Shown here piece after piece: positions 28,563-46,125 of a stretch of DNA of 64,000 bases; the stretch's first letter is position 1, and each line of letters begins with the position of its first letter. Location: positions 1 to 64,000 of the forward strand of contig JAJRYK010000004.1 in NCBI GenBank assembly GCA_024275825.1, in the 5' to 3' direction. This stretch comes from Alphaproteobacteria bacterium. Its GTDB lineage: Bacteria; Pseudomonadota; Alphaproteobacteria; Micavibrionales; Micavibrionaceae. The position numbers were made by a program, and so were the translations under genes. The notes beneath the pieces were generated by a model. That model was not told where the DNA came from. It ran no database searches and saw only the letters and a list, made by a program, of their open reading frames with translations.

Positions 28563-28798
28563 GTCTAAGCGCCTCCCTGAAAACGCGTTTTAGTCAAAAA
28601 AAGGTCGATGAATCAGTGGAAATGGGCGAAGTGCCCGTAAGATGAAGTCCCTGTCATACCCTTTTATTATACCGCTTATTGTTGTGTTTGTTGATACACA
28701 TGCGGCTTTCTACTGCACTTATCATCACATTTTCAGGTAAAGAAGAGGTTAATATCCACAGGCTATAATATTTTTTTCACTCGCCCAACGAGTATAAA

Positions 28799-28824
28799 AA
28801 AAGGGCCCCGCGAAGGGCCCTTTT
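28799..28824 (-). terminator. Palindromic terminator after the second prepilin gene
   Basis: AAAAGGGCCC and GGGCCCTTTT pair around CGCGAA, 22 bases beyond the stop of the gene at 28847. The symmetric stem has T runs on both strands. Confidence 0.85.
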
Positions 28825-28846
28825 AAATTCTTTATTAAAGCAAAGA

Positions 28847-29542: not shown

Positions 29543-29774
29543 TTTAAAACTCCTTCAAAAAGTTTATATCAAGTTTGTGTGTGTAAAAACGACATGCCAG
29601 GACGGCACATGTGTAAAATAGTATACACAATTACGCCCCCATAGAACAGGCCCCATAGCCTTAGTTTTTCATTATTTCCTAAACAGACCGTTAATTTTTC
29701 CCTGCAAAAACAACGCTTTGACAAAATGAGTCCTCACATTCACAAAATGAGGAGTTTGGGGCGGTTTTAGGAGG

Positions 29775-30030
29775 TTTTTCACCACAAAGGCTCAAAGGAC
29801 ACAAAGATTCTCAAAGAAAGTAATCGTTGTTTTCATTAAACATCGTACATATCACGATACCGTCATTACACGGCTCCGTCCGTGTAATCTACGATCAATA
29901 TGGATTGCACGCATAAAGCGTGCAATGACGGATTTAGAAAAATGGACGAATTTAATAATTTATCTACAGCACTCCTTATAATATTCTTCTTTGAGAATCT
30001 TTGTGTCCTTTGAGCCTTTGTGGTGAAAAC
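29775..30030. repeat. CACAAAG-type palindromic repeat, copy B5, with long interrupted loop
   Basis: The left arm (29776-29817, starting TTTTCACCACAAAGGCTC) and right arm (29987-30029, ending GCCTTTGTGGTGAAAA) are perfect reverse complements over about 42 bases. The loop is about 170 bases instead of the 10-30 seen in other copies, and holds a second palindromic element at 29860-29931. The 29543-30171 spacer contains no gene. Confidence 0.9.
29860..29931. repeat. Compound palindromic element inside the B5 loop
   Basis: It is bounded by CCGTCATT and AATGACGG and contains two hairpins: ACACGG-CTCCGT-CCGTGT and TTGCACGC-ATAAA-GCGTGCAA. Mobile-looking miniature element or REP pair; no coding content. 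Confidence 0.75.
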
Positions 30031-30045
30031 GACTACATATATGAG

Positions 30046-30109
30046 CCACGGAGGCATGAAGGCGCGAAGTTTTTTATTTTGTTTTCCCCCTTCGTCTCTT
30101 CGTGGTAAG
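30046..30109. repeat. CACAAAG-type repeat, copy B6 (diverged)
   Basis: CCACGGAGGCATGAAGGCGCGAAG on the left pairs imperfectly with CTTCGTCTCTTCGTGGTAAG on the right around a T-rich loop, 16 bases after copy B5. Confidence 0.6.
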
Positions 30110-30136
30110 AGATTTTTGTGTCTTCAGTTTCTTGCA

Positions 30137-30166
30137 AAAGATCCCGGATCAAGTCCGGGATGACGG
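30137..30166. repeat. Short palindrome ATCCCGGATCAAGTCCGGGAT
   Basis: ATCCCGGA and TCCGGGAT pair around TCAAG, followed by GACGG. It lies just downstream of the AraC-type gene and may terminate it. Similar palindromes are common in alphaproteobacterial spacers. Confidence 0.6.
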
Positions 30167-30171
30167 TGGGG

Positions 30172-31197
30172 TTAGGTATTCTTCCTAAATTTCGATGGTG
30201 AATCACCCGTCATTTCTTTGAAGACACGGTTGAATGATGCCAAAGAATTAAACCCGACATCCTCCGCCACCACTTTTATCGGCGCGTCTGTCTCACGCAG
30301 CAGGCGTTTGGCGTCTTCTATGCGGTATTCATTCATCAATTGCGGAAAGCTTTTGCCGAAATGGGCATTAATGACCTTCGAAATTGTCGTTTCCGACGCG
30401 TCACATTCGCGCGCCAGATCCATCCGGGAATAGCTCGCCTCTTGATAAACCTTCTCTAAGGTCAATAAACGCTCAATTTTCTGCGCAAGCGCCTCATCAG
30501 CATCTGAAAAACTCTCCGCACCGCGCGGCTCCACCTGCACGGCTTGCGGATAGATACGAAACAGGCTGGTGCTGACCAAATAAACAAAGCCCAGCCCCAA
30601 AACACTGCGCGCCATGATTAAGTTATTAACCTCAAAATCCTCATTCAGCCCTGCAAGCATCAAAATCAGCAGCGATATATTCATGAAGATCAGTGACAGA
30701 ACGAGCCAATAGCGTGCCTTGCCATTTTTCTCCGCATAAAGACGATCAAACAGCTGACGCTTAAACCAAATTTTCAGCAAGCTGATCGCCCCGGCGATAA
30801 GGCCGCAAATCACCAACCACTCTGATAGATTTTCAGCATCGCTGGCCAAGTTTTGCGCAGCAAAAAATGCAAGCGGCGGCAGCAATAATACCCAATAATG
30901 ACGCAGCGCCGGAACCTTGGTTATTTCTGCAATTTGGATGATCAGCAAAACACTGAGCGGCGGGCCGTAGAACCAGGCAAACCAGCGAATTGTCTCAAAA
31001 TGCGGGATCAATTCCGCAATCTGCGTTTGCCCAAAATCGCCCATGAAGGCCAGCCCAAGCACAAAGAAATACAAAAGCGCCAGCCCGGCCCGCGAAATTC
31101 TTCCTGCGCGCATGCTCATATAAACCAGCACATAGACGCACTGCGTTACGCCAATCAGAGACAGAATCTCGGTTATGCTGAAACGGAGCTGGTCCAT
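30172..31197 (-). CDS. AraC-family regulator with a multi-helix membrane N-terminus
   Basis: The C-terminal 100 residues are an AraC-type DNA-binding domain with two helix-turn-helix units (SRMDLARECDASETTISKVI and IKVVAEDVGFNSLASFNRVF, then TGDSPSKFRK). Residues 1-215 contain about six or seven hydrophobic helices (ITEILSLIGVTQCVYVLVYM at the start) and no periplasmic domain, so the protein may sense a membrane or lipid-soluble signal. The length is 341 residues. It starts 12 bases after the gene at 31210, in line with the pilus genes, and is a candidate regulator of them (inference). Confidence 0.92.
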   Translation of the reverse strand: MDQLRFSITEILSLIGVTQCVYVLVYMSMRAGRISRAGLALLYFFVLGLAFMGDFGQTQIAELIPHFETIRWFAWFYGPPLSVLLIIQIAEITKVPALRHYWVLLLPPLAFFAAQNLASDAENLSEWLVICGLIAGAISLLKIWFKRQLFDRLYAEKNGKARYWLVLSLIFMNISLLILMLAGLNEDFEVNNLIMARSVLGLGFVYLVSTSLFRIYPQAVQVEPRGAESFSDADEALAQKIERLLTLEKVYQEASYSRMDLARECDASETTISKVINAHFGKSFPQLMNEYRIEDAKRLLRETDAPIKVVAEDVGFNSLASFNRVFKEMTGDSPSKFRKNT

Positions 31198-31209
31198 TAT
31201 GCTCTTTCG

Positions 31210-31941
31210 TTATTGTTGCGGGACATCCTTACATAGAGGATGCACGGCCGCTTCCTCCGGGTCAAGAATACGTTCGCATATCGTATCGCGCGTATGGGTA
31301 ATTTCCGCCGGGTCGTATTTGTCGAGACCTTCTTTGATGATTTTAACCATGATCTCAAGCGCCTCATCTTTGTTCCCCGTGGAATTGAGGATAAAGCCCG
31401 GCATTTGCCGCGTCCATACGGGCTGATCACCCGGCAAGGCCGCAAGCTGCCGCGCATATTTAAGGGCCAAGTCCATATTCTTCATCCTGAAGCGCGCAAG
31501 ATATGCGGCATGCGCAAGCCAGCGCCAATTCTCTCCGCCCGGCCTTTGCCCAGCATCGCTCAAATACTCTAAAAGCGGGGGCAGCATTGATGGTTTTTGT
31601 ACGCCGCCAAAATATAGAGCCGCGAGATACGGCGTAAAAGAGGATTCAGGATCCAGCATGCTACTGAGGCGTAACCAGCGCGTGAGGTCATCAAAATCAT
31701 AATCCTCAAGCGGCGTAACGCGCCCGCCCGTATCGCCAAAATTTTGGAGCATAACACTGATCATGCGGAATGCGAGCTGCCGATCGCCGATAGCAAAGCT
31801 CTGCGCGCGCGATTCGCTTGGCACCGGAGGAATTATATGCCACTCCGCCCGAAAATCACGCGCATAAAACCAGAAGATGAGATTGAGAAAGACGGCAAGA
31901 TAGAGAAATATTTCAACGGTTTTTTCTTTTAAAATGCTCAT
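31210..31941 (-). CDS. Membrane-anchored repeat-like protein of the pilus locus
   Basis: I do not recognise a named family. Residues 9-27 form one N-terminal membrane helix (IFLYLAVFLNLIFWFYA). The rest appears extracytoplasmic and mostly helical in TPR-like pairs (SSFTPYLAALYFGGVQKPS, NWRWLAHAAYLARFRMKNMD, ALKYARQLAALPGD, NKDEALEIMVKIIKEGLDKY). It is 15 bases after an ABC permease gene and 12 before the AraC gene. By position it could be the accessory subunit of the transporter, the role proposed for PilG next to PilH/PilI in Myxococcus. Confidence 0.75.
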   Translation of the reverse strand: MSILKEKTVEIFLYLAVFLNLIFWFYARDFRAEWHIIPPVPSESRAQSFAIGDRQLAFRMISVMLQNFGDTGGRVTPLEDYDFDDLTRWLRLSSMLDPESSFTPYLAALYFGGVQKPSMLPPLLEYLSDAGQRPGGENWRWLAHAAYLARFRMKNMDLALKYARQLAALPGDQPVWTRQMPGFILNSTGNKDEALEIMVKIIKEGLDKYDPAEITHTRDTICERILDPEEAAVHPLCKDVPQQ

Positions 31942-31956
31942 GGCTTGAAATACCTC

Positions 31957-32718
31957 TTAAAACTGCCTGCGCACCAGATCAAGCATGGATGCCAAAGAGA
32001 CAAGCATTGTAAAGACCAGACCCTGCGCAAACACAAAGGCGAGATTTATCTGCTCCCCCACGCCATAGATCAACCAGGATGTCTGGCCCATCAGATCGAG
32101 GCGCGGGGTGATCACGGACACCATCTGCACGGCCATTTCCAAAATCGGCATATTGCTCACGCTATAATCCGCGTAAATAATACCCAGAATTTGCCCCATC
32201 ATACGCGCCAGAACATAAAACCCAAAGCTGGCCATCGCGGCCGTTGCGGCGCTGGTGAGAAACATTGAGAAAAATAACGCCATACTGGCCATGATCATAT
32301 TTTCAATGATAACGCTCACGGTCCAGAGGATATGCCCTTCTCCGAAAAGATGGGGGCCGAGAATATAAACGGCCAGCCCCTGCGCCAGCCCCATAAAGAT
32401 CGCCAGCACGTAAAAAGCAAAGCTGTAGGAGAGTAAAAACTGAACCCGGCCAATGGGGCGAGAGAGCAGGAATTCCACATCCTTTGTTTCGAAAGATCGC
32501 CTCATAAAAAAAACGACAAACAAAACGAGACCAAAAGCGCCAATGAAGCGAAAGCTACCCGCCGCGAACACGGCGCTGAATTGATTTTTTTCAATGATCG
32601 CAGACGATCCGACAAACACCGACAGGCTCGCGCCGAGTATCAACAGGATCATCAGCGCCGTAATAACCCGGTCCCGAAGAGCCGCAGTCAGAACATATTT
32701 AACCAAGGACCAAGACAT
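31957..32718 (-). CDS. ABC-2 type transporter permease of the pilus locus
   Basis: This integral membrane protein of 253 residues has about six hydrophobic helices, with the first (VITALMILLILGASLSVFV) following a short cytoplasmic start. The layout, including the SFETKDVEFLLSRPIGRVQF coupling-helix-like segment, is that of ABC-2/NosY-type permeases. The matching ATPase gene is 6.3 kb upstream in the same run, at 39046. The substrate is unknown. In Myxococcus an ABC pair (PilH, PilI) in the pil cluster is needed for pilus assembly, which is the closest parallel I know. Confidence 0.82.
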   Translation of the reverse strand: MSWSLVKYVLTAALRDRVITALMILLILGASLSVFVGSSAIIEKNQFSAVFAAGSFRFIGAFGLVLFVVFFMRRSFETKDVEFLLSRPIGRVQFLLSYSFAFYVLAIFMGLAQGLAVYILGPHLFGEGHILWTVSVIIENMIMASMALFFSMFLTSAATAAMASFGFYVLARMMGQILGIIYADYSVSNMPILEMAVQMVSVITPRLDLMGQTSWLIYGVGEQINLAFVFAQGLVFTMLVSLASMLDLVRRQF

Positions 32719-32740
32719 CTTAAAGTACCAAAATTTTCAC

Positions 32741-34627
32741 TTAAAGCTTAAACGGACGGCGATCGCTGGAAAAACGTCTATATAAATCCTTGTCAGCACT
32801 ATGAACGCTACCCGATGGGCTATTTAATATCGTTGCCTTCAGGAAAATAACGAGCTCCGTTTTCGTTACGGTATCGCTATGGTTTTTAAAGAGTGAGCCA
32901 AACATCGGTATTTCGCTCAAAATGGGGACGCCATCTTCACTTGTTTCCGATCTATCATTTAGCAGGCCACCCATAACAACGGCCTGGCCGGAGCTAACCT
33001 TAATCACAGTATCAATTTCCTGTACGTCTAGCTGAGGGATTAAAGATGGCGCAAGATTAGCACATGGCGCGCCACATTGCGCGATAACAAATGCTACCCC
33101 CGGATCCTCAACCTGCGCATCAATGCTCGTCACCGTAGGGCGCACGGCCAGAGATATCGTCTGCCGTTCAAGATCAATCGAGGGCATAACATTAACAAGA
33201 ACGCCAACAGGCACATTTCGTATTTCGCTGGTCACCTTTGTGTTCACAGTAGCGCCGGCACCGGCAACCGGCGTGGAGTCGGATTTCACCTCAACTTCAA
33301 AAAACACAACATTCGTGGCAACATTTAAAACCGCAGACTGATTATTCAAAACAGTCATTCGCGGGCTGGCCAGTGCACGCACTGTTCCAAAGGTCGAAAG
33401 CGCCTCAATAAAGGCCTCTATATTGCTCCCCGCATATCCAACACCAAAGGAAGATGCCCCGGCAATCGCCGTGGTTGAATTAGCGTTCAGCGCATCCAAA
33501 AATGCCCCACCAGTATTTGATAAGAAGTTAAGTGTGGTCAAATCCCCAGTCGGATTAATCTCGCGCCAATTAATGCCGGTCGCATATTGATCACTAAGCG
33601 ACACCTCCAGGATTTTAGCTTCAATCAAAACTTGCGCCGTTGCAGATCTCCTAAGCAGTGTCAAATATTTTTCTATTTCTTTTTGCTGCCGCTGCGGCGC
33701 GAAAACATTTACAATACCGGCCATTTTATTGAGCGAGAATGTTGCACTCACAGCAGCACCTGCTGCGCCCTGAGCGCCCACATCATCGCCGCTAATCGGT
33801 AGAGATTCAACCCGCAACACAGCATCGGGCGGTGAAATTTGCACCTGCCCACCACGCCCCTGCGGTGCAACTGGCCTCACATCGGGGTTTTGATCCATGG
33901 CCGTAATACGCGGCGTAACGCTGGTTTTTAGAGATGATGATGATGCCTCTAAAATCTGTGTTAAATTTGTTTCAAGTTCCCCCCAAAAATCAGCCTCGCT
34001 CTCTGATGTTGCTTCAAAAGAAGATCCTGTATCCGCGCCTTCTCCTGCAACAACAGCAACATCATTCCTAACGCTTCCCGAATTGCTTCGAATAAAGCTC
34101 AAATAGTCAATTTTATATGACTTGTTATAAGGTGTATCAATTTCAACGCGCAAAACATCATTGTCGAAGTTATGGCGCAGCCCGGCCATATCGCTTATAC
34201 GCTCTACAACCTCATCAAGTGGCCGATTACGCGCGGTGAAGATGATGGAGCCACTAATGCGCGGATCTAGCTCAAGGTCATAATCAGCTTGATTAGCCAG
34301 CTCAAAGAGAATATCGCGCAGTGGCACAGATTGATTAACTGAAATAGAAACCAGCGGCATAGATTTCCCAATAGCGCCGCCTTGCGCCACATAAGGTTTT
34401 AACTCTGGAATAGAAACGTTATAGCCTGATTCGTTCTCATCGACTTCTGGCAAGCGCGGTGCGAGCCCATCCTTAAAATCTTGCACCTCCATACTCGCTG
34501 AACGATCCGGTTTGAGCTGATTTTTAGCAAAATCACAACCGCTGAGCGGAACAACCAGAAACCCTAACGCAAAAACCGTCAGGAAAAACTGTGAAGAAAA
34601 AATATAGGAGCAAGTTCTATTGATCAT
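32741..34627 (-). CDS. Type IV pilus secretin lipoprotein (MshL/PilQ-like)
   Basis: This forms the outer-membrane ring through which the pilus passes. A signal peptide ends in LSGC (Cys31), indicating a lipoprotein. An STN/N0-like domain follows near 100-165 (DILFELANQADYDLELDPRI). The C-terminal secretin domain, about 320-600, has LASPRMTVLNNQSAVLNVA, VGVLVNVMPSIDLERQTISL and the closing GQAVVMGGLLNDR with TKTELVIFLKATIL. The length is 628 residues. A single STN domain and the N-terminal lipobox fit the MshL group more than classical GspD. Confidence 0.93.
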   Translation of the reverse strand: MINRTCSYIFSSQFFLTVFALGFLVVPLSGCDFAKNQLKPDRSASMEVQDFKDGLAPRLPEVDENESGYNVSIPELKPYVAQGGAIGKSMPLVSISVNQSVPLRDILFELANQADYDLELDPRISGSIIFTARNRPLDEVVERISDMAGLRHNFDNDVLRVEIDTPYNKSYKIDYLSFIRSNSGSVRNDVAVVAGEGADTGSSFEATSESEADFWGELETNLTQILEASSSSLKTSVTPRITAMDQNPDVRPVAPQGRGGQVQISPPDAVLRVESLPISGDDVGAQGAAGAAVSATFSLNKMAGIVNVFAPQRQQKEIEKYLTLLRRSATAQVLIEAKILEVSLSDQYATGINWREINPTGDLTTLNFLSNTGGAFLDALNANSTTAIAGASSFGVGYAGSNIEAFIEALSTFGTVRALASPRMTVLNNQSAVLNVATNVVFFEVEVKSDSTPVAGAGATVNTKVTSEIRNVPVGVLVNVMPSIDLERQTISLAVRPTVTSIDAQVEDPGVAFVIAQCGAPCANLAPSLIPQLDVQEIDTVIKVSSGQAVVMGGLLNDRSETSEDGVPILSEIPMFGSLFKNHSDTVTKTELVIFLKATILNSPSGSVHSADKDLYRRFSSDRRPFKL

Positions 34628-34767
34628 TGGTCACTCAACCTTGGACATAGGAAACGATAGCGCGAAACGCACTGACTGCCTAAAGTATAATCATAATAGG
34701 GTCGACCGATCAATAACTGATCATCCAGCAAAGCTTTATTAATGGGATAAGTTTCGTGCGCTAAGCT

Positions 34768-35916
34768 TTATTCGCTAAGAGAAAGGAGAGATGTATCCAT
34801 AACTTGAAGAGCATCGCCGCCCTTCGCACTATTGCGATCTTTTTCTGTTAGGTTTGCTTGTTGCAATTTTATTTTAATATCAGCAGGCTTATCAGAATTG
34901 ATAATCACAGTTTCCTCAGTGATTAAATCTTCTTGATAAAGCCGCATAAGCGATTGATCAAAAGTGCACATGCCGAGCGTATTATTTTGCTCCATCACAT
35001 CCTTGATCTTTCCTATCTCTCCAGACTGGATAAGCTCACGCACGAGCCCCTCATTGATCATCACCTCAATGGCCGGCGTTAAGCCTCCATGTTTGCACGG
35101 CATTAATCTTTGCGACACAATCGCTCTTAAGTTCATCGATAGATTAAGACGAATCTGTGTGCCGTAATCCTCTGGGAAAAAGTTAATAATGCGCTCAATA
35201 GCCTGATACGCGTTATTGGTATGAATGGTTGAGAGACACAAATGCCCCGTTTCCGCACTCATTAAGGATTGCTCCATAACTGCGCGGTCCCGGATCTCTC
35301 CCACCAAAATAACGTCCGGGCGCTGGCGCAAGGCATTCTTGAGCGCAATCTCATAGCTCTCCGTATCCACCCCTACTTCACGCTGCGAGATAATGGACTT
35401 CTTATGTTGGTGAAAATATTCGATAGGGTCTTCAATGGTAATGACATGCCCCTCCATGACGGAGTTACGGTAGTCAACCATTGCGGCAAGAGACGTCGAT
35501 TTACCCGACCCCGTCATCCCCGTAAATAAAATCAGGCCGCGCTTTTCTTTTGCTAGCCCCTCTAAAACACGCGGCAAGCGCAAATCGGCGAAACTGGGGA
35601 TCTCGGAAATAATACGGCGAATAACGATAGCCGACTGTTGCTTTTGTCTCATAATACTTAAACGAAAGCGCCCATGCTCACCCATATCAAGCGCTGTGTT
35701 CAGCTCCATATCCGCTTCAAAATCGCGCTTTTGGCGATTGGTCAGAAGCATATTGAGCACATCATTGATATCATCGGGCGACATCTTATCGTTACTGAGT
35801 GCATAAAGCTCATCTTCCACCCGCAATGTCGGCGGATAGGCCACTGTCAGATAGAGGTCACTGGCCCCACGATCATTCATATTCTTCAGGTAATTTAGGA
35901 TTGCCGGCTCACTCAA
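34768..35916 (-). CDS. pilU: Pilus retraction ATPase, PilU-type
   Basis: This hexameric secretion ATPase of the PilT family assists PilT-driven retraction. Walker A GMTGSGKS is at 133-140, the Asp box ITIEDPIEYF follows, Walker B VILVGEIRD is at 202-210, and the His box is ETGHLCLSTIHTNN. The Walker A Met replaces the usual Pro, as in PilU. The C-terminus lacks the AIRNLI motif of PilT. The length is 382 residues. It overlaps the pilT stop by four bases, implying coupled synthesis. Retraction ATPases are not part of type II secretion, which supports a pilus assignment. Confidence 0.92.
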   Translation of the reverse strand: MSEPAILNYLKNMNDRGASDLYLTVAYPPTLRVEDELYALSNDKMSPDDINDVLNMLLTNRQKRDFEADMELNTALDMGEHGRFRLSIMRQKQQSAIVIRRIISEIPSFADLRLPRVLEGLAKEKRGLILFTGMTGSGKSTSLAAMVDYRNSVMEGHVITIEDPIEYFHQHKKSIISQREVGVDTESYEIALKNALRQRPDVILVGEIRDRAVMEQSLMSAETGHLCLSTIHTNNAYQAIERIINFFPEDYGTQIRLNLSMNLRAIVSQRLMPCKHGGLTPAIEVMINEGLVRELIQSGEIGKIKDVMEQNNTLGMCTFDQSLMRLYQEDLITEETVIINSDKPADIKIKLQQANLTEKDRNSAKGGDALQVMDTSLLSLSE

Positions 35917-37082
35917 AATGAATATCCTTCAGTTCCGCCTGACTTTTGATCTGCGCCACCTTCGGAAGAAAGCTCTTCAACCAAATCGGTGCCATCAATG
36001 CGCCCACCACCAAGCGCGCCTGCTGCATAGTCTTCATCTTCGTCATCTTCGGAATCCGTCGCCGTCATCATCGCCTTGCGGGCCTCGCTCTTTTCAATCA
36101 AGCCGCCTTCCAGCAGATCAGCAATCGCATCTTCCATCGTGATCATCCCGTATCGCGATCCCGTTTGCATCATGGAGTACATTTGCGGCACCTGATTTTC
36201 ACGAATCAAATTACGTACCGCATTTGTGCCGACCAAAACCTCAAACGCCCCAATACGGCCACCGCCAGCCCGCTTCAACAGGCTCTGCGCGACAACGCCC
36301 TGCAATGACGAAGCCAGCATCGCGCGCACCATTTCCTTATCACCCGTCGGGAACACATCAATAACACGGTCAATGGTTTTTGCCGCTGAATTAGAGTGCA
36401 GCGTTCCAAATACCAAGTGCCCAGTTTCCGCCGCGGTTAGTGCCAAAGAAATCGTTTCATAATCACGCATCTCTCCCACCAAAATCACATCAGGATCTTC
36501 ACGAAGCGAGCTTTTAAGCGCTCTGGCAAAGGACTTCGTATCCGTGCCCACCTCACGGTGATTGATCAAAGATTTCTTTGATTTGTGAAAAAATTCAACC
36601 GGGTCTTCAATCGTAATAATATGCTTCCCCATATTCGTATTGATATGGTTGATCATGGATGCCAGCGTCGTTGATTTACCGCTCCCTGTCGGACCGGTGA
36701 TCAAAACAATCCCCTTCTCCAGCTCGGCAAAGCGCCGTATAACCGGCGGCAAATCAAGCTCGCGCATCGTTGGCACTTCGGTCGGGATGGTTCTAAAAAC
36801 TGCAGAAGACCCGAGGCGCGTCGTAAATGCATTCACACGAAAACGCGCTTTCTCGCCAAGCGCGATGGCGAAATCAATCTCCATTTCCTTTTCGTAGGTG
36901 GAGCGCTGTTCCTCTGTCATCACAGAATAGAGCATCGTGCGAATATCGTCACTAGACAGCACATCAGTCTTGATGCGTTTCATGTCGCCATTCACGCGAA
37001 TAATGGGTACGCTTCCTGCGCTTAAATGCAGGTCAGACGCCGAGTTTTGCATGTTAAATGCTAAGAGCTGCGTTAAATCCAA
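35913..37082 (-). CDS. pilT: Pilus retraction ATPase PilT
   Basis: PilT depolymerises type IV pili, powering twitching or DNA and prey pulling. Walker A GPTGSGKST is at 130-138, the Asp box TIEDPVEFFH is at 158-167, Walker B VILVGEMRD is at 199-207, and the His box is ETGHLVFGTLHSN. The C-terminal GTNAVRNLIRENQ corresponds to the conserved AIRNLIRE motif required for retraction. The length is 389 residues, with a short acidic/glycine tail extending past the core. A 125-base gap upstream could contain a promoter. Confidence 0.95.
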   Translation of the reverse strand: MDLTQLLAFNMQNSASDLHLSAGSVPIIRVNGDMKRIKTDVLSSDDIRTMLYSVMTEEQRSTYEKEMEIDFAIALGEKARFRVNAFTTRLGSSAVFRTIPTEVPTMRELDLPPVIRRFAELEKGIVLITGPTGSGKSTTLASMINHINTNMGKHIITIEDPVEFFHKSKKSLINHREVGTDTKSFARALKSSLREDPDVILVGEMRDYETISLALTAAETGHLVFGTLHSNSAAKTIDRVIDVFPTGDKEMVRAMLASSLQGVVAQSLLKRAGGGRIGAFEVLVGTNAVRNLIRENQVPQMYSMMQTGSRYGMITMEDAIADLLEGGLIEKSEARKAMMTATDSEDDEDEDYAAGALGGGRIDGTDLVEELSSEGGADQKSGGTEGYSF

Positions 37083-37207
37083 AGCTAAAATCCCCTTTTA
37101 TTGAAAACGTGTCAGAAAGGCCGACCATCCTATTATTACGCAATAGTCTAAACGGAAAGTAAATTTTCTAAACTATTTACAAGATTATTTTACACTATTC
37201 ACCCTCT

Positions 37208-38014
37208 TCAGAACAGAAAAGAACCATCCAGGACCAAAAGGATGAAAAACGCGATAATTAATGCCGGGCCAAAGGGAAAAACCTTAGTTTTTTTAATGAC
37301 TTGCCAGATAATGGCCAAAGCCACGCCCAAAACACCAGACACCACACAAAAGAGCGGCAATTGATAAAACCCGAGCCATAAACCGGCCGCGCCAAAAAAC
37401 TTCACATCACCAAAACCCAAAGCGTCTTTTTTCAGCACTTTTCCAACAAACCAGCCCATAAGCCAAATCACGCCCGCAAACACCGCCGCGCCCAGAATAT
37501 TATCCGCTAAAACGTCGCCCACCGTACGTTGATGAAACACAAAAATTTCCGTGCCAAGATAGACTGCGCCAAGGCCGGCAATAATCGCCACCAGCTGATT
37601 GGGTAAAATCATATACTCCAGATCAATCATCAGTAACGCCGTCAGAAACGGCGTCAACGCCATTAACATCCACCCCTGATAAGAAAACCCAAATTGCGTG
37701 TAGATAGTCAGACATGCCGCCAAAACCAAAAATTCTGTGACAGGATAAACCACGCTAATAGGTGCCTGACAATGCCTGCATTTTCCGCGAGAAAACAGCC
37801 AGGAAAAAAGCGGCACCAAATCACGAACGCCTAAAATGTGATCACACTGCGGACAGGCCGAACGACAAAGCGCAGAATCCTTTCTATCCGCCCTGCTCTT
37901 ATACAAAACAGCCCACGGAATATCGCGCGGAATGCGATAGATCATCGCCGTGGAAAAGCTGCCCAGCACCAGGCCAAGAAAACAAATCAGGAAAAATTCA
38001 AAAAACAGCATCAA
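37208..38014 (-). CDS. pilD: Prepilin peptidase / N-methyltransferase
   Basis: PilD cleaves prepilin leaders and methylates the new N-terminal Phe. The catalytic aspartates fit Asp131 (LLMIDLEYMILP) and Asp203 (GFGDVKFFG). The N-terminal half keeps the zinc-type Cys pairs Cys54/Cys57 and Cys79/Cys82 (CPQCDHI, CRHCQAP) of the methyltransferase domain. Several membrane helices complete the fold in 268 residues. Substrates are expected to be the two prepilins at 27816-29542. Confidence 0.95.
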   Translation of the reverse strand: MMLFFEFFLICFLGLVLGSFSTAMIYRIPRDIPWAVLYKSRADRKDSALCRSACPQCDHILGVRDLVPLFSWLFSRGKCRHCQAPISVVYPVTEFLVLAACLTIYTQFGFSYQGWMLMALTPFLTALLMIDLEYMILPNQLVAIIAGLGAVYLGTEIFVFHQRTVGDVLADNILGAAVFAGVIWLMGWFVGKVLKKDALGFGDVKFFGAAGLWLGFYQLPLFCVVSGVLGVALAIIWQVIKKTKVFPFGPALIIAFFILLVLDGSFLF

Positions 38015-38033
38015 TCAATGCCTTACTGCCGCA

Positions 38034-38960
38034 TTAGCGCAGATGGCTCAAGCGCTCATACACATTGTCGCGCGGAATAGATTTTCCACCACCATAAACG
38101 GTATCCATCTCCAGCGCCTTTTCGTAGTAATTAATCGCCTCTTTCTTATTACCGCCGCGATCAGCAACAACAGCAATATTGAACAAATGATTCGCATTAT
38201 TCGGCTCCATACTCGCCGCGATGCCAAGATATTGAAGTGCGTCGTCATAGCGCTGCATCTGCGCATAAGCCACAGCCGTCTGCGCCACAACAGCAACACT
38301 ATCAGGATGGCGCTCCCGCAAGTCCAAAAGGCGCTGCAGCGACACCGCCGGATATTGCGCACTCATCAAACCAAGCATATTGATCTCAGCATCCAAATTA
38401 CCGTCATTGGCATCAAGCAACTCTTGATAAGCCATGACCGCCTCATCATTGCGCCCAAGATTCTGCAAAGAGACAGCGCGCCCCATCAGCACATTAGAAT
38501 CTTGTTTTCGGCGCTCATAAAGACGGTCAAACATCTCAAGCGCGGCATCGTAACGCCCTAATAACAACGCCCGCTGCGCCGCGACGATCTGCGCCGGCTG
38601 AGAATTACCGCTCGCATTTTTCTCAACCACAATAAACTTAGAGGCTGGCTCCAACGCCGGGTTAAGCTTCCGCGGTCCCGTGCTGCCAAGCTCCCCCCTG
38701 GGCACTAAATCATTTGCATCAAAGAATAAATTTTCATCTTCGCTCTGCCCTGACGGAGCAAGCGCATCAGAATCAGGTGCGCCTTCGCCTGTTAAAAATT
38801 CCAAATCAGCCTGTGTTATACGTTCCTGCCCTTGCGGTTCAAGTTTTCTGATCTGCCCGGAATTCTGGGCAAGAACAGGTTGTGAAATAACAAAGACACC
38901 AAGCATAGCAGCCGATGTAAGCAACATTTTGTTAATGGTCAAAAAATTAAAAACGGACAT
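38034..38960 (-). CDS. Exported TPR-repeat protein of the pilus locus (MshN-like position)
   Basis: A signal peptide (MLLTSAAMLGVFVISQPVLA) is followed by a low-complexity linker and four or five TPR units (AAQRALLLGRYDAALEMFDR, GRAVSLQNLGRNDEAVMAYQ, QTAVAYAQMQRYDDALQYLG, NIAVVADRGGNKKEAINYYE). The open frame reaches 39086, but that would overlap the ABC ATPase gene. I chose ATG 38960 (308 residues) because AAAGAG precedes it and the signal peptide follows. MSHA loci carry a TPR protein, MshN, which this could correspond to. Confidence 0.85.
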   Translation of the reverse strand: MSVFNFLTINKMLLTSAAMLGVFVISQPVLAQNSGQIRKLEPQGQERITQADLEFLTGEGAPDSDALAPSGQSEDENLFFDANDLVPRGELGSTGPRKLNPALEPASKFIVVEKNASGNSQPAQIVAAQRALLLGRYDAALEMFDRLYERRKQDSNVLMGRAVSLQNLGRNDEAVMAYQELLDANDGNLDAEINMLGLMSAQYPAVSLQRLLDLRERHPDSVAVVAQTAVAYAQMQRYDDALQYLGIAASMEPNNANHLFNIAVVADRGGNKKEAINYYEKALEMDTVYGGGKSIPRDNVYERLSHLR

Positions 38961-39045
38961 GAGATAAAACTCTTTTACTAACATTTGGCATGAAGCACCT
39001 TGAAAACGCTTAAAGCATAGATTCGCACAGCGCATTACCCAATTA

Positions 39046-39783
39046 TTATGCAGCATTCTTTTCTTCAATGAAATGAAGAAAAGCACGCTCCAGGTTTTCA
39101 GCCCCGGTTTTTTTCTTTAATTCCCCCGGCGCGCCCACATATTTTATCTGACCATCATGTAAAACAGCCACGCGGTCACAAATTTCATCCATATCCGCCA
39201 GAATATGCGAGCTCAAAAAAACAGTTTGCTCATGGCTTTTACCCTCCACCAGCATATCCTTTACCTTCGTGCGCGCACATGGATCAAGGCCGCTCATCGG
39301 TTCATCAAGCACGAGCAATTCACATTGCGTTAGCACGGTCGCAAGCAGCCCAAGTTTTTCACGCATACCCTTTGAATAGGCCTGCACACGGCGCTTAAGA
39401 GCCGCAGGGTCAAGCGCCAGCTTCTCCGCCCCCGCAATCACTTTTGCCTCATCAAAGGGCTGCTTATATAAACGAAGAGAGAAACGGACAAACTCCATGC
39501 CGCTTAAAAACCAGGGCGGCTCAAAGCGTTCGGGCAAATACGCCAAGCGTGCCTTGCTTTCCACCGCATCTAATGGCTGACCATGGATGCTAATCACGCC
39601 AGATTCCTGGGTCATAAGCCCCAATATCGCCTTAATCAAGGTGGTCTTACCCGCACCATTCAGGCCAATAAGGCCAAAAAACTCACCTTTTTGAATCGAA
39701 AATGACGCATTGTGCACAACCGGCACACCGCCATAAGCCATGGTGACATCATCAATTGAAAGAGAATTTATCTTTGCGCTCAC
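39046..39783 (-). CDS. ABC transporter ATP-binding protein of the pilus locus
   Basis: Walker A GLNGAGKTT is at 40-48, the signature segment reads YSKGMREK (136-143) in place of LSGGQ, as in ABC-2 export ATPases, and Walker B ELLVLDEPMSGLDP is near 155-168. SSHILADMDEICDRVAVLHDG is the H-loop region. The length is 245 residues. It lies nine bases after the PilP-like gene and is the obvious partner of the permease at 31957, although secretin, retraction and peptidase genes separate the two. Compare PilH of Myxococcus. Confidence 0.93.
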   Translation of the reverse strand: MSAKINSLSIDDVTMAYGGVPVVHNASFSIQKGEFFGLIGLNGAGKTTLIKAILGLMTQESGVISIHGQPLDAVESKARLAYLPERFEPPWFLSGMEFVRFSLRLYKQPFDEAKVIAGAEKLALDPAALKRRVQAYSKGMREKLGLLATVLTQCELLVLDEPMSGLDPCARTKVKDMLVEGKSHEQTVFLSSHILADMDEICDRVAVLHDGQIKYVGAPGELKKKTGAENLERAFLHFIEEKNAA

Positions 39784-39792
39784 GGTTAAACT

Positions 39793-40470
39793 CTATCCCG
39801 GCAAGAAAATGCGTGTGTCAATATTGAACCTTTGATGCGCCTTTAAGCGAATAGGAAAGATCTGGTTGCTCCACTCATCAAACCATTTCATCTCAATATA
39901 TTCATTGTGAACATTAAGGTCCAAGATTTCCAGCGGCAACGCATCTGGCGTCACGCGCTTTCCATTGAGCCATATTGTCCAATCACCTTGAGCAACATAG
40001 ACAATCCCACCCAAAACAATATCACGCTTCTCGGGCGGTGGTTTAACACGATCTTCCGGCCGAATCTCTGGTCGTTTATTTAATTCCGCCCTGGTCGGTG
40101 CACGCACCTTACCGCGCGAACGCTTGGCATCTGCAATAGCATTACGCTCCCAAAAAGTGAAAAACAAAGAACTCATCTTAGAGACATCGCGAGCAGCATT
40201 GATCTTCGTGCTTTTTTCAGCCTTTTGGGCCGCATTGTCACTCACATCAGCGGTAACAACGTCGGAAACCTCTTCATCACCATTGCCTTCGGATTCACTG
40301 CTCTGTATTGATCCCTCAACCGTCACACCAAAGTCTTGCAGCACCTCGCCTTCAGGGCCAGCGACCTCTTCCACCACAACATCTAAATCTGACGCAACGT
40401 CCTGCGCATAAGATGGCGTAAAAACAAACCAGACCGCAAAAAAACATAAAGCTGAAATTAAAATCTTCAT
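39793..40470 (-). CDS. Exported pilus-assembly protein, PilP/MshK-like by position
   Basis: A signal peptide (MKILISALCFFAVWFVFTPSYA) precedes an acidic, probably disordered stretch of about 110 residues. A compact C-terminal domain of about 75 residues follows (VLGGIVYVAQGDWTIWLNGK). PilP and MshK proteins have a similar plan and link the inner-membrane complex to the secretin. The frame is open 18 codons further upstream, but ATG 40470 overlaps the preceding stop by four bases and gives the signal peptide (225 residues). The family assignment rests on order and architecture, not on a clear motif. Confidence 0.75.
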   Translation of the reverse strand: MKILISALCFFAVWFVFTPSYAQDVASDLDVVVEEVAGPEGEVLQDFGVTVEGSIQSSESEGNGDEEVSDVVTADVSDNAAQKAEKSTKINAARDVSKMSSLFFTFWERNAIADAKRSRGKVRAPTRAELNKRPEIRPEDRVKPPPEKRDIVLGGIVYVAQGDWTIWLNGKRVTPDALPLEILDLNVHNEYIEMKWFDEWSNQIFPIRLKAHQRFNIDTRIFLPG

Positions 40471-41114
40471 GGCCGCCCCCCTCCTGCACCGATCACATCC
40501 GCTTGAGGAATCATTGTACGCCACATTAAATCAATCTTAGCACTCACCAAAACAGGACTTGCGCCACTGGAAATACTGCGGAGCAAAGCGCCAGTCACCT
40601 CTTTTTCTCGTTTCATTGTAATGTTCTGGACAGACACATGGCCGGGAAATACCCGCTCCACTAAGTCTATATATTTATAAATATTAAGCTCATCCATCGC
40701 CTCCACCCGCACCTCAATCGGGCTGCGCAGGACAACATGATCAGCCTTAGCGCTCTCTTCACTCTCCTCAAATTCACCAGACCTGATATTCGCCACAGCA
40801 GAAATAACGCCGGCCTGTTTTTGAATGGCCTCAAAAAGAAGCTCAGCCTCACGGCGCCCCTGCTTGCTAAAGAACCCCTTTTCCTTCAACGCCTCGAACT
40901 CAGAGCGTTGCGTTTCCAATTGAGAAAATTCAACAGACAAACGACTAATATCCGTGCGCAACGTGGAAACCTGAGAACGAACCATGCGTAACTCCCGCTC
41001 TTTCTTAGCGGAATCAGGCATTAAATACCCGTAAACGCCATAAGCAACCAGCACATTCACAGTAACCAGCACGACTAAAATAATAACTCGGCTTTTCCCC
41101 AGTACTCTAATCAC
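40467..41114 (-). CDS. PilO/MshJ-like inner-membrane alignment protein
   Basis: One membrane helix lies near the N-terminus (VIILVVLVTVNVLVAYGVYG), followed by a coiled coil of about 50 residues (VRSQVSTLRTDISRLSVEF) and a small alpha/beta domain. This is the plan of PilO-family proteins, which pair with PilN beneath the secretin. The length is 215 residues. It overlaps both neighbours by four bases (ATGA), consistent with coupled synthesis of the PilMN-, PilO- and PilP-like subunits. Confidence 0.82.
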   Translation of the reverse strand: MIRVLGKSRVIILVVLVTVNVLVAYGVYGYLMPDSAKKERELRMVRSQVSTLRTDISRLSVEFSQLETQRSEFEALKEKGFFSKQGRREAELLFEAIQKQAGVISAVANIRSGEFEESEESAKADHVVLRSPIEVRVEAMDELNIYKYIDLVERVFPGHVSVQNITMKREKEVTGALLRSISSGASPVLVSAKIDLMWRTMIPQADVIGAGGGRP

Positions 41115-42736
41115 AATGACGTCTCCTGCGCCGGCTCTGGCGCTACTATCGTAATTTCAGCAATAAAATCTTGCTGTACATTAATAGAATTTAGATCACC
41201 CGTTTCAACAACAAGCTCTTCAATATACTCATAGTCCTTCAGAAACTTACTCACAACAACACGATAGCCAGGAAGCACCCGTTCCAAGCGTGTCCTTAAA
41301 TCACGCACCTCCTTATTGCCACGATCAACATCAGTCGTGCTCGGATAGGTCATCTGCATCGTGGCAGAAAATAGATCGCGCGGCTCATCCGATGTCTGTG
41401 ATTGGCCAAAGGGATCTTTTTGAACTTTGTGCTCTACACGGTTAATCGTGACCTTATCAATGCGAAGATCTTTGCCAAGCGCCCGCCCGACCCCATCAAA
41501 CACATCCAATGCTTTAATTCTCTGCCGCTCAAGCTCGTCACGAACAGCAATCGAGCTTTGCACCAAACGCACATCAAAGCCAAGCTCTTCCTTGCGCTGT
41601 ACTTCTCTTTGGTACTGAGCATTAAGCTGTGATTGCACATTTTTTCTCGAATCTATATCTGCGCCCGTCTCAGACACATTAAAAGCAACAGTCATAAACT
41701 GATAACTGAAAAATGCAGCACTACAGAACAACAGAAAAGAGGCCGCAAGTGCTGCCTGACGAGGCTTGGAAACACTATCAATTTGAACCGCCTTCATCGG
41801 CAGAACAAATTTAGTCTTGCGCCCAGCCCAGGCTACATGAAGCGTATCAGCGTAGCGAACATGCTTATGATTCCCAATGGGCACACCGAGCATGCGCGCG
41901 GCCTGGACAACTGTTATCGCCGTAAAGTTACATTCCTCTTCAATGAGAGCCTCAAGGCGCTCACCCGCATCCGGGTTGGCAACAACAATGACATCAAGGC
42001 CATCCTCAGCTTTATATCCAAAGCGCGCTAGATAACTCATCGTTGCTTTAAACTCTTGATGAACCTCATCTGCCCATGCGCCGCTATCACTCTCATCATC
42101 AATGATGGGCGTCATCCGTGTTAAGGCCATGTCACCATTCTTCGTCACGATTTGACGAAGACCACCACTTTTATGCTGTCCAATAAAGATCGACCATTCC
42201 GCATTGCTCTTCTTCGCCTTCGAGAGCTTTGCAGACAAGGCACCCACCATGTCTGATGCCTCAACAGGCAACAGACAAAAGCCAGAAATAGATGCCAGGG
42301 AAATTTTTGCTGCTGCGATCGTATCCTGGAACTGTGAAGAATTTGGAATAGCCGCAAAGATAAAGATATCAGCGGCCGGACCAGCATCTTTTTTGGTCAC
42401 CCTTTCCTTCAGAGGGTACGCCGCCTTAACCGAATAATTTGGAAACGCCACATTCAGCTTACGCTTAATTAAGCTTTGTTTGTCGAGCATGCCCACGCCT
42501 TTTTTGACCACGCGCTCCTTACGATAATGCTGCTCGACCATATCATTGAGAATCAAAATCGGCTTGCGACCACAATCCTTGGAAATAATATTGGCAACAT
42601 TTTGCTGGAAGTTTTCACCACCCCATGGAATCGTCTCAATCAAATCCACGCCCTTGCTGCTCGTTGTATAGATATACAACGCCTCATCAGAAAGAAGCAG
42701 AACGGTACGACTGGGCGACAAAAAAGAAAGAGACAT
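41111..42736 (-). CDS. PilM-PilN-like fusion protein (MshI/GspL-like)
   Basis: The 541 residues divide into a cytoplasmic N-terminal domain of about 325 residues with a PilM/actin-like start (LLLSDEALYIYTTSSKGVDL), one membrane helix (AALAASFLLFCSAAFFSYQF, about 331-350), and a periplasmic part with a coiled coil (LNAQYQREVQRKEELGFDV) and a PilN-like domain. This combines roles that PilM and PilN carry separately in other pili, as in GspL and MshI. The canonical nucleotide motifs of PilM are not obvious. Confidence 0.8.
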   Translation of the reverse strand: MSLSFLSPSRTVLLLSDEALYIYTTSSKGVDLIETIPWGGENFQQNVANIISKDCGRKPILILNDMVEQHYRKERVVKKGVGMLDKQSLIKRKLNVAFPNYSVKAAYPLKERVTKKDAGPAADIFIFAAIPNSSQFQDTIAAAKISLASISGFCLLPVEASDMVGALSAKLSKAKKSNAEWSIFIGQHKSGGLRQIVTKNGDMALTRMTPIIDDESDSGAWADEVHQEFKATMSYLARFGYKAEDGLDVIVVANPDAGERLEALIEEECNFTAITVVQAARMLGVPIGNHKHVRYADTLHVAWAGRKTKFVLPMKAVQIDSVSKPRQAALAASFLLFCSAAFFSYQFMTVAFNVSETGADIDSRKNVQSQLNAQYQREVQRKEELGFDVRLVQSSIAVRDELERQRIKALDVFDGVGRALGKDLRIDKVTINRVEHKVQKDPFGQSQTSDEPRDLFSATMQMTYPSTTDVDRGNKEVRDLRTRLERVLPGYRVVVSKFLKDYEYIEELVVETGDLNSINVQQDFIAEITIVAPEPAQETSL

Positions 42737-42744
42737 TCAAAGAC

Positions 42745-43989
42745 CTAAAAATCAATAGTTTCCAACATAGAGTATATCGGACCAAAGACCGCAACTGCAA
42801 TCCATAATATCATTATACCCAGAACTCCTGTTAATGCCGGCTCAATCATCGCAATTAAACCCTGAATTGCCTCGTCGACATCCTTAGTATAAAAACCAGA
42901 AACCTGGTCGAGAACGGGACCTAAATTACCAGATTCCTCACCGACCTTAATCATACGCACAACCAGTGACGGGAACTCCCCCGATGCATTAAACGCCTCA
43001 GACAGCGTGCTGCCTGACTGAATATAGCGCTCAACAGATTCCAGCGCCTCCAGCATCGCACGATTGGTCACCGTTTGCCGCGCGGCCTTCAGCCCCTGCA
43101 CGATATCAATGCCGCTATCATACAGCGCGCCGAAGGTTTGCGCATAGCGCGCAATTGTGATTTTGCGAATCAATATACCGCCCACGGGCATTTTCAAATA
43201 TAGCGCATCAATCTGATAGGCCAGATCATCTGATGACGCCCGCAATAGCCTTAATGTTGTTAGCAGTAAAAACGGCGTAATCAAAACAACAAACCCGCCA
43301 TAGACCGGCAAACCAAATATCGTGAATAACGGTGAAGCAAAAAATTCAGACGTGGCCACCAGCGATGTCGTGAAAATATTGAGGTCCTGATCAAGATTAT
43401 CCAGAAAACCAACAATTTGCGGCACCACATACCCCATCATCACCACAATCACGAGCAGGACAACGCCCGTCACAATAATCGGATAGCGCGTGGCCTTGCG
43501 AATATTAGACTGCATCTGGTCAACCCAGAGCAAATACTTCACAAGCTGACGATAAATACCGGTCAGGTCCCCGGTTTCCTCACCGGCCTTGATCAAAGAG
43601 ATATAAAGATTGGTAAAAATCTTCGGGTGCAGCGCCATAGATTCGGACAAGGATGCCCCATCAGAGACATCACGATGAACATCCGTCATCACATCACGAA
43701 GCGTACCATTGCTCGTTGTATCACGAATATCCGCCAGCGCATCAAGCAAGGGCACACCCGCGCCCTGCATCTGCTCCATATGAATAAAAAACTGAATAAG
43801 ATCGCGGACCTTGACTTTCTCGGTCTTAAATCCACCAGAACTGCTTTTTTCACCGATCACCGAACAATCAATAAGCTCGAGCCCCGCCGATTGAAGTTGA
43901 CGATATAAATCGACCTCGTTGGCAGCAGAAATCGTGCCGCGTATGGGGCGACCTCGTTCATTTACAGCTCTATATTTATAGCGTTCGAT
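42745..43989 (-). CDS. Pilus platform protein PilC/GspF (MshG-like), non-standard start codon
   Basis: This polytopic inner-membrane platform protein works with the assembly ATPase. Two GspF repeats are seen: one near the N-terminus (FFIHMEQMQGAGVPLLDAL), one in the C-half (YAQTFGALYDSGIDIVQGLK), and GEETGDLTGIYRQL and GEESGNLGPVLDQV are typical. The first standard start, GTG 43860, would give only 371 residues. Codons upstream in the same frame encode the conserved family N-terminus (RYKYRAVNERGRPIRGTI), back to a TAG at 44010. That interval contains no ATG, GTG or TTG. ATC at 43989, with GTGGGA eight bases upstream, is the best-placed start and gives 414 residues. Confidence 0.82.
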   Translation of the reverse strand: MERYKYRAVNERGRPIRGTISAANEVDLYRQLQSAGLELIDCSVIGEKSSSGGFKTEKVKVRDLIQFFIHMEQMQGAGVPLLDALADIRDTTSNGTLRDVMTDVHRDVSDGASLSESMALHPKIFTNLYISLIKAGEETGDLTGIYRQLVKYLLWVDQMQSNIRKATRYPIIVTGVVLLVIVVMMGYVVPQIVGFLDNLDQDLNIFTTSLVATSEFFASPLFTIFGLPVYGGFVVLITPFLLLTTLRLLRASSDDLAYQIDALYLKMPVGGILIRKITIARYAQTFGALYDSGIDIVQGLKAARQTVTNRAMLEALESVERYIQSGSTLSEAFNASGEFPSLVVRMIKVGEESGNLGPVLDQVSGFYTKDVDEAIQGLIAMIEPALTGVLGIMILWIAVAVFGPIYSMLETIDF

Positions 43990-44019
43990 GGTTCTTATCC
44001 CACGCTTCTAAGTGAATAC

Positions 44020-46125
44020 TTACTTTCTGAGATCAACAACTTTGGCAAGCGCCTGAAAGTCAGTAACGCCCTCAAGCACTTTTAGAATGCCATCATCCCG
44101 CATGCTTTTGAAGCCTTTTTTAACAGCCGCAGCTTTAAGGTCCGCTTTTGAGTGGCTTGCCGCAACCAAATCATCCATCTCCTCATCGAATGATAAAATC
44201 TCTACGACAGCTGTCCGCCCGCTATAGCCTTGACCGCCGCACGCATCGCATCCACCTTGCTTGGCCTTAAAAATGGTTAGCGCACCGGCTTGCTCAACAC
44301 CAAGAAACTCACATTCATCAGCATCCGGTTTATAGGCAACCTTACAGCTACCACAAAGCTTACGCGTCAAACGCTGCGCAAACACCGCAACAATCGCGCC
44401 CGCAATCATCCCCGGCTTAAGCCCCAGATCCAAAAGACGCGGCAAAGCGCCAAACGAATCATTCGTGTGCAATGTCGTATAAACCTGGTGCCCCGTCATA
44501 GAGGCCTTCAGCGCCATCTCCGCTGTTGTCTGATCACGAATTTCACCAATAAAGATAATATCCGGATCTTGCCGCAGCAACGCCTTAATCCCGTCCCCAA
44601 ACTCCAAAACACCTTCACGCACATGCGTCTGCCTGATCATCGGCAGAGAGTATTCAACAGGGTCTTCCAATGTCTGAATATTCACCGCCACATCATTGAT
44701 TTCATTAAGCATTGAATAAAGCGAAGTTGTCTTACCTGAGCCCGTAGGGCCCGTCACAATAATAATCCCCTCAGGCTTGGATTGCGCATGCTTGATCATA
44801 TTCAGATTATGCTCACTAAAGCCCAGCCCTCTCATCGGCATAATGCTTGAACTTTTATCCAAAACACGAATAACGATATTCTCGCCATTTACCGTCGGCA
44901 AAGAAGACACACGGAAATCAGCCTCACGACCGCCAACATTCAAACTAAAGCGCCCATCTTGCGGACTTAATTTGTCAGCGATATTCATGCCGGACATAAT
45001 TTTAATGCGCTGCGAGATACCGCTCCAATGCTGCTTATGCAGGATTTGTGCGGTATACAGCACGCCATCCTTACGATAACGCAGGCGAATAAAATTTTCT
45101 TCTGGCTCAAAGTGCAAATCAGATACACCAAGCTTCACCGCATCAAACACCAGCGCATTCACAAGGCGCACAATCGGATGAGAAAACGCAGCCTCCTCCC
45201 CCAGAGTAGCCATATCAATCTCAGCGCCATGCTCTTCCAATTCCTTAAGGATCGCGCTAATCGAACTCGCATATCCATAGGCCGCATCAATTGCATCAGA
45301 CAGCGTCTTGGACGTCGCCACCATTGGCTTGATTTGCGTACCTCTGGGCACATAACGACGCAGCAAATCCAGCACCACCACGTCATACGGGTCAGCCATC
45401 GCCACCAACAGCTCATCATTATCCATAGAAATCGGTAAAAGACTGTTCTTAAGCGCGACCTCTTTTTCAATCAGCGCCAGCGCATCCCCATCAACAATCG
45501 TTGTCTTTGGATCAAATAGATCAAACCCGGAGCTTTCCGCCAAAAACTTAATCAGGACTTCTTCAGAAATAAACCCAAGATCTACTAAAATTTCACCAAG
45601 CATCCGCCCGGTAATCTTCTTTTCCTGAAGCGCAACATTGAGCTGATCATCACTAATGATGCCCATAGACACCATCTTATCGCCCATACGGCCCTTAAGC
45701 CGGTTCGCCGCATCCGCAGCTTTTACACCCAGATTCGTTTGATATGTTTTAAGCTCGCCGCTCGCTTTAGAAGAATCATACTCAACAGGAAGCATCTCCT
45801 CTTCATCTTGCTTTGAGGAAACATTGTCTTCACTAGCCTCAAGGTTCAAATCCTCAGTGTCAGAAACAAATTCAACCTCCTCCGCCATAAATGAACCCTC
45901 AATCGAGTCTTGCTCAAGCGCAGAAGCCAAATCAGCATCCGGCTCGATCTGCAAATCATCGTCCAGCGTTAAATCCTGGAAGTGTTCAAATTCCGTGTGT
46001 TTTTTGGGGGCCTCGTCTTTTGAGACAGCCTCCACGTCAACAGCATCAGAATCGCCCTGAATACGAAGCCCTAACTTATTGATTTTATTATCTTTACTGT
46101 TATCACTGCTCATGTTTTGAACCAT
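44020..46125 (-). CDS. Pilus assembly ATPase PilB/GspE (MshE-like) with MshEN-like region
   Basis: This is the extension motor of the pilus. Walker A GPTGSGKTT is at 459-467, Walker B DIIFIGEIRD at 522-531, the Asp box TLEDPVEYS is nearby, and a zinc tetracysteine is formed by Cys591/594 and Cys626/629. An acidic N-terminal extension of about 140 residues precedes an MshEN-like region (about 144-255). Its two half-motifs begin RMGDKMVSMGIISDDQL and RMLGEILVDLGFISEEVL, a pattern that in MshE binds cyclic di-GMP. The final Gln of the first motif is Glu here, so binding is probable but unproven. The length is 701 residues. It is the first gene of the pilus run. Confidence 0.95.
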   Translation of the reverse strand: MVQNMSSDNSKDNKINKLGLRIQGDSDAVDVEAVSKDEAPKKHTEFEHFQDLTLDDDLQIEPDADLASALEQDSIEGSFMAEEVEFVSDTEDLNLEASEDNVSSKQDEEEMLPVEYDSSKASGELKTYQTNLGVKAADAANRLKGRMGDKMVSMGIISDDQLNVALQEKKITGRMLGEILVDLGFISEEVLIKFLAESSGFDLFDPKTTIVDGDALALIEKEVALKNSLLPISMDNDELLVAMADPYDVVVLDLLRRYVPRGTQIKPMVATSKTLSDAIDAAYGYASSISAILKELEEHGAEIDMATLGEEAAFSHPIVRLVNALVFDAVKLGVSDLHFEPEENFIRLRYRKDGVLYTAQILHKQHWSGISQRIKIMSGMNIADKLSPQDGRFSLNVGGREADFRVSSLPTVNGENIVIRVLDKSSSIMPMRGLGFSEHNLNMIKHAQSKPEGIIIVTGPTGSGKTTSLYSMLNEINDVAVNIQTLEDPVEYSLPMIRQTHVREGVLEFGDGIKALLRQDPDIIFIGEIRDQTTAEMALKASMTGHQVYTTLHTNDSFGALPRLLDLGLKPGMIAGAIVAVFAQRLTRKLCGSCKVAYKPDADECEFLGVEQAGALTIFKAKQGGCDACGGQGYSGRTAVVEILSFDEEMDDLVAASHSKADLKAAAVKKGFKSMRDDGILKVLEGVTDFQALAKVVDLRK

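Follow-up and report, generated by a model that had tools for sequence, protein, structure and literature searches.

The window analysed here, a stretch of 64,000 nt from an Alphaproteobacteria bacterium (GCA_024275825.1, contig JAJRYK010000004.1; all coordinates refer to it), belongs to a genome of 1.92 Mb that is 99.8% complete and carries, on the minus strand from 46125 to 30172, one type IV pilus (T4P) locus with the genes for a complete machine. Interleaved with these are genes for an ATP-binding cassette (ABC) ATPase (39046), an ABC-2 permease (31957) and a membrane-anchored protein (31210, here called the anchor protein); this module very probably functions within the pilus system, as opposed to lying there by chance. 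An earlier note on this DNA had described a single minus-strand pilus run containing the ABC ATPase, permease, anchor and an AraC-type regulator, and the open reading frames (ORFs), with their strands and coordinates, as well as the family matches agree with that description; the 6 kb that it gave between the ATPase and permease genes was measured as 6.3 kb. The locus continues past 30172 into two prepilin genes (29542-28847 and 28562-28002, both N_methyl). With protein families assigned by Pfam/NCBIfam models, the genes are the following (TPR, tetratricopeptide repeat):

44020-46125, minus strand: PilB/MshE extension ATPase (T2SSE 6e-114, MshEN 1.7e-15)
42745-43860, minus strand: PilC/MshG platform protein (T2SSF 1.5e-53)
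41111-42736, minus strand: PilM-PilN fusion-like protein (by position, topology and conservation within the order)
40467-41114, minus strand: PilO-like protein (by position and one N-terminal membrane helix)
39793-40470, minus strand: PilP-like protein (by position, conserved; the listed ORF reaches 40524)
39046-39783, minus strand: ABC ATPase, PilH-like (ABC_tran 7.7e-23)
38034-38960, minus strand: secreted TPR protein (TPR matches, conserved place; the ORF reaches 39086)
37208-38014, minus strand: PilD prepilin peptidase (A24_N_bact and Peptidase_A24)
35913-37082, minus strand: PilT retraction ATPase (T2SSE 8e-50)
34768-35916, minus strand: PilU retraction ATPase (T2SSE 9.8e-43)
32741-34627, minus strand: MshL-type secretin (Secretin 7.8e-34; TIGR02519 219 bits, below the cut-off of 250)
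31957-32718, minus strand: ABC-2 permease, PilI-like (orthologue family matches ABC2_membrane_2; modelled fold)
31210-31941, minus strand: inner-membrane-anchored TPR-like accessory protein, PilG-like (membrane helix, helical repeats, profile match)
30172-31197, minus strand: membrane-embedded AraC-type regulator (HTH_18 6e-23)
28847-29542, minus strand: prepilin, probable major pilin (N_methyl 6.2e-7; downstream of the locus in most relatives)
28002-28562, minus strand: second, shorter prepilin, possibly a truncated copy (N_methyl 8.9e-8)

On the ATPase side, the Walker A, Walker B, signature and H-loop residues by which an ABC-2-type system is recognised are all present and invariant across 18 orthologues. 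Queried singly, neither the permease nor the anchor protein gave a significant Pfam match, but 10 of 32 permease orthologues matched ABC2_membrane_2, and the permease model (predicted local distance difference test, pLDDT, 86) resembles NosY with a template-modelling (TM) score of 0.70 and PmtD with up to 0.64; matches and fold together identify a six-helix ABC-2 permease. The anchor model (pLDDT 91) consists of one N-terminal membrane helix followed by a TPR-like superhelix. Its cysteines 222 and 237 are both present in 26 of 32 orthologues and both absent in the other six, a disulphide-like pattern which suggests, at the level of sequence, that the soluble domain is periplasmic. A pilotin of the PilF/PilW/Tgl type was ruled out for this protein, as it has no lipobox, its only cysteines are those two and its N-terminus is the membrane helix; a weak Pfam match to Glyco_hydro_10 was dismissed as noise.

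The order sampled for conserved linkage is very probably Micavibrionales (family Micavibrionaceae, including Micavibrio aeruginosavorus ARL-13), and ARL-13 is an epibiotic predator (PMC3189940). One copy of the permease was found per genome in 123 of the 142 genomes of the order. In all of 40 permease loci taken from six families, the ATPase gene is found ahead of the TPR gene, and the genes for permease and anchor as a pair after the secretin gene, so that the check for gene order in relatives, which the earlier note had proposed with absent linkage as the refuting outcome, turned out in favour of linkage. The AraC gene keeps its place in 35 of the 40 loci. The adjoining glutamine synthetase gene, however, is retained in only 16, and the conservation therefore does not reflect synteny of the whole region. 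In the closest relative of the window (G037, locus L031), the locus has kept the ABC module, but PilT and part of PilU are encoded on a different contig; a second coupled loss of PilT and PilU was accordingly dismissed for this genome.

Where the pilus is absent, the transporter is mostly absent as well. Nineteen genomes of the order are without the permease, in agreement with a profile search, and in 15 of these, orthologues of the secretin and the ATPase are missing too. Three further permease-negative genomes (G055, G108 and G041) have pilus genes, but are draft assemblies in which the locus is broken or partial, such that G010 alone, a genome of 100% completeness, counts as a true loss. 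G010 keeps PilB, PilC, the PilM-PilN-like (MN), PilO-like and PilP-like proteins, the TPR protein, secretin and pilin, but ATPase, permease, anchor, PilT, PilU and the AraC regulator are all missing (L108:5244-15516; G010:C1 ~839243-849515), and its PilD is short.

Beyond the order, the permease profile was run against 387 sampled alphaproteobacterial genomes and matched 14, nine of them outside the order and belonging to eight families. Those nine genomes contain ten loci; the permease gene adjoins an anchor gene in nine of the ten, and in eight of these nine it also adjoins a secretin gene, in permuted gene orders. In G397, a second permease copy without an anchor (L081:9143-9961) lies near TPR, PilT and PilU genes. 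An MshL-type secretin was found in 56 genomes of the same sample, and the twelve permease-free MshL-secretin loci that were inspected showed neither a permease nor an anchor recognisable as of this kind. The module is thus an accessory part belonging to one branch of such pili.

Related sets of genes occur beside pilA in other lineages. With a Geobacter PilA sequence serving as bait only, 80 loci were retrieved, and about 22 of them encode three proteins near pilA: an ABC ATPase, a permease of the ABC-2 type (~270 aa) and a third one of ~285 aa. Sets of this kind come from Geobacteraceae, other Thermodesulfobacteriota, Nitrospirota, Zetaproteobacteria and one Pseudomonas metagenome-assembled genome (L154-L233, L325-L334). 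The permease families are related over their full length (profile-profile P 2.5e-14), and the profile of the window's family scored 14-42 bits on 20 of the 22 pilA-linked permeases, whereas 20 multi-helix control proteins adjoining other ABC ATPases did not exceed 5.5 bits. The ATPases share 32% identity with their pilA-linked counterparts and fall into one tree group (support 88/98), in which one stray control is also placed. For the accessory proteins the profile match scored 50.7; the best unrelated TPR family reached 29.1 and the own reversed profile 27.1, and judged from these sequence comparisons the anchor and the pilA-linked third protein are probably homologous. The pilA-linked sets resemble the window locus in that all three subunits are related and lie at pilus genes in every locus examined. 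They differ in being three contiguous genes, mostly adjoining a GFTLIELMIVVAII-type pilin, whereas the window locus is split, and in the length of the accessory protein (~285 aa), which mostly has an extra DPYGG-containing C-terminus that the window's protein does not have. In most of these proteins, as in L227:12379-13233, the conserved C-terminal motif reads IPxDPYGGxF and recalls the C-terminus of GspG-type pseudopilins; a pilin mimic or a pilin-binding tail would be a possible reading of it.

Linkage was also assessed free of any pilus bait, by running anchor (TPR-protein) profiles alone against 398 Pseudomonadota genomes, of which 24 and 41 were matched. All 20 anchor neighbourhoods retrieved contain a prepilin ORF or PilB/PilC/PilD, mostly within a few kb, and no prepilin ORF was encountered in 94 kb surrounding control ABC ATPases. 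The 20 neighbourhoods represent nine families, several of them coming from one family, and are not fully independent.

As to the remainder of the locus, the PilM-PilN fusion-like protein has a cytoplasmic part, a membrane helix at ~334-352 and a periplasmic part. No convincing Pfam match was obtained for PilM/N, PilO and PilP, even with a 28-member MN family, and the MN-family profile found no match in a library of solved structures, and these assignments are based only on position and topology. Read from the sequence, the true starts are likely at ~40470 for the PilP-like ORF and at ~38960 for the TPR protein ORF. For the AraC protein, to which the earlier note gave 6-7 helices, hydropathy at a strict threshold yielded four strong membrane helices. 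The second prepilin has an N-terminus near-identical to that of the first and ends ~45 residues sooner; it may be a truncated copy or serve as an alternative pilin. The stretch separating the two genes contains, at 28799-28824, a near-perfect GGGCCC-containing inverted repeat with a T-rich tail, by its sequence features a likely terminator or attenuator downstream of the major pilin gene. Intergenic gaps are at most 22 bp inside the P-ABC-TPR-PilD and MshL-permease-anchor-AraC groups but wider before PilC, PilT and MshL (125-159 bp) and before the first prepilin (629 bp), a spacing from which transcription as a few linked transcripts appears likely; promoter-like matches at the locus stayed at chance level. 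Outside the locus, a GNAT/FeeM-like N-acyltransferase gene followed by one for a PlsC-like acyltransferase (49308-50977) probably belongs to ornithine-lipid synthesis.

Conserved linkage within the order, near-complete co-absence and related modules at pilus loci elsewhere together argue strongly for functional integration over chance adjacency, as the earlier note had held. Gene order can be passively inherited within one order, and an unrelated transporter might sit in a conserved operon by chance or by passive synteny; this is very improbable, however, since the module keeps its place where the genes around it are rearranged, the loss of the module and that of pilus genes are coupled, and other families and phyla have related modules at pilus loci whose genes are ordered differently. 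Chance adjacency was rejected on the flank reshuffling in the loci of the order and on the anchor-profile neighbourhoods at pilus genes. We consider it likely that the 39046, 31957 and 31210 proteins together make up an ABC-2-type membrane machine dedicated to this T4P. In such a machine, two cytoplasmic ATPase subunits, two six-helix permease subunits and the inner-membrane TPR-like accessory protein facing the periplasm would act as one complex, in which ATP hydrolysis would most likely move or loosen pilin, the presumed client, or pass force to the accessory domain, and subunits might thereby be made available for repeated extension and retraction.

Several observations weigh against this assignment. 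Many alphaproteobacterial MshL-type secretins and pilus loci exist without this permease, and G010 keeps its assembly core without the module, which is therefore not needed for retention of the core. In view of both findings, it would be premature to extend to this module the need for pilus assembly that the earlier note cited from Myxococcus. Two control ATPases lie in or beside the pilus ATPase tree group, homology of the accessory proteins is moderate, TPR repeats can match by convergence, and the support for the alphaproteobacterial members comes from sequences and models alone.

The joint loss of the module with both retraction motors and the AraC regulator in G010, which has kept PilB, PilC, MN, O, P, TPR protein, secretin and pilin, hints at a role in pilus dynamics, though it is one event only, and would be in line with a module that serves retraction or its regulation, together with PilT/PilU and the AraC regulator, instead of assembly. 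We regard a function confined to retraction as rather unlikely, given that the locus in G010, with its short PilD, may be decaying, that modules outside the order often have no adjoining PilT/PilU, and that pilGHI of Myxococcus xanthus is described as required for pilin export and pilus assembly. Export of a non-pilin cargo (peptide, lipid or surface decoration) used alongside the pilus is likewise unlikely: fold and ATPase subfamily do include exporters such as PmtCD, whose substrates are phenol-soluble modulin peptides, and the ABCA lipid transporters, but no biosynthetic or maturation gene accompanies the module, whose constant partners are pilus genes. For the dedicated pilus machine that we prefer, the M. 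xanthus data (loss of S motility, pilin translocation, assembly) favour a role in subunit supply, while the loss in G010 favours one in dynamics.

PilGHI has so far been treated as a myxobacterial oddity, and a 2024 review on pilus assembly makes no mention of it. Linkage across an order with an epibiotic predator among its members, together with related modules at pilus loci in several other lineages, indicates that an ABC machine is recurrent in pilus systems, and the natural loss in G010 along with PilT and PilU provides a concrete hypothesis on dynamics versus assembly. More tentatively, an overlooked and widely distributed three-part ABC machine may be an extra ATP-powered component of many T4P, beside PilB and PilT, which would act on membrane pilins or pass force towards the periplasm and be kept where pili cycle fast, for instance in predatory Micavibrio relatives; at present we would call this broader proposal possible but doubtful.

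Among named systems, NosDFY and PmtCD share the permease fold, with the TM scores given above, and the ATPase subfamily, but have other partners and no pilus link; NosD is not a TPR protein. The likeness to the Vibrio mannose-sensitive haemagglutinin (MSHA) pilus, claimed in the earlier note, holds only loosely. An MshE-type ATPase with its MshEN domain is present, and MshL (TIGR02519) is the best of all secretin models, yet the secretin scores below its cut-off (219 versus 250 bits), no ORF for an MshM (ExeA-like) ATPase was found in 28000-46125, and, unlike Vibrio MSHA, the window locus has PilT and PilU inside, an apparent PilM-PilN fusion and the ABC module.

The closest counterpart is PilG-PilH-PilI of M. 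xanthus (MXAN_5782-5780, TC 3.A.1.144.5), whose genes have been published as following pilA in the order pilG (accessory factor), pilH (ATPase) and pilI (permease) (PMC3546991, PMC3924187). Deletion of pilGHI abolishes S motility (PMC5544727), a passage in PMC3724824, citing Wu 1998, describes PilGHI as essential for pilin translocation, and a need for pilGHI in pilus assembly and the export of PilA has been described. The earlier note knew of no parallel but Myxococcus, yet there are others, namely the pilA-linked modules of Thermodesulfobacteriota, Nitrospirota, Zetaproteobacteria and a Pseudomonas; the accessory-ATPase-permease order implied for M. xanthus recurs in loci L330 and L331. The likeness to PilGHI itself is one of published roles and order, sequence relatedness having been computed only with the pilA-linked sets of other phyla. 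Like PilGHI, the window has an ATPase, an ABC-2 permease and a membrane-anchored accessory protein at a T4P locus. Instead of a contiguous operon with pilA, its ATPase gene lies apart from the permease-accessory pair, an arrangement conserved within the order, in a single locus with an MshL-type secretin. We found no description of this locus type in the literature; it is a previously undescribed arrangement of a known but neglected module, best read, by analogy, as a split, MshL-secretin-linked form of a widespread PilGHI-type ABC module.

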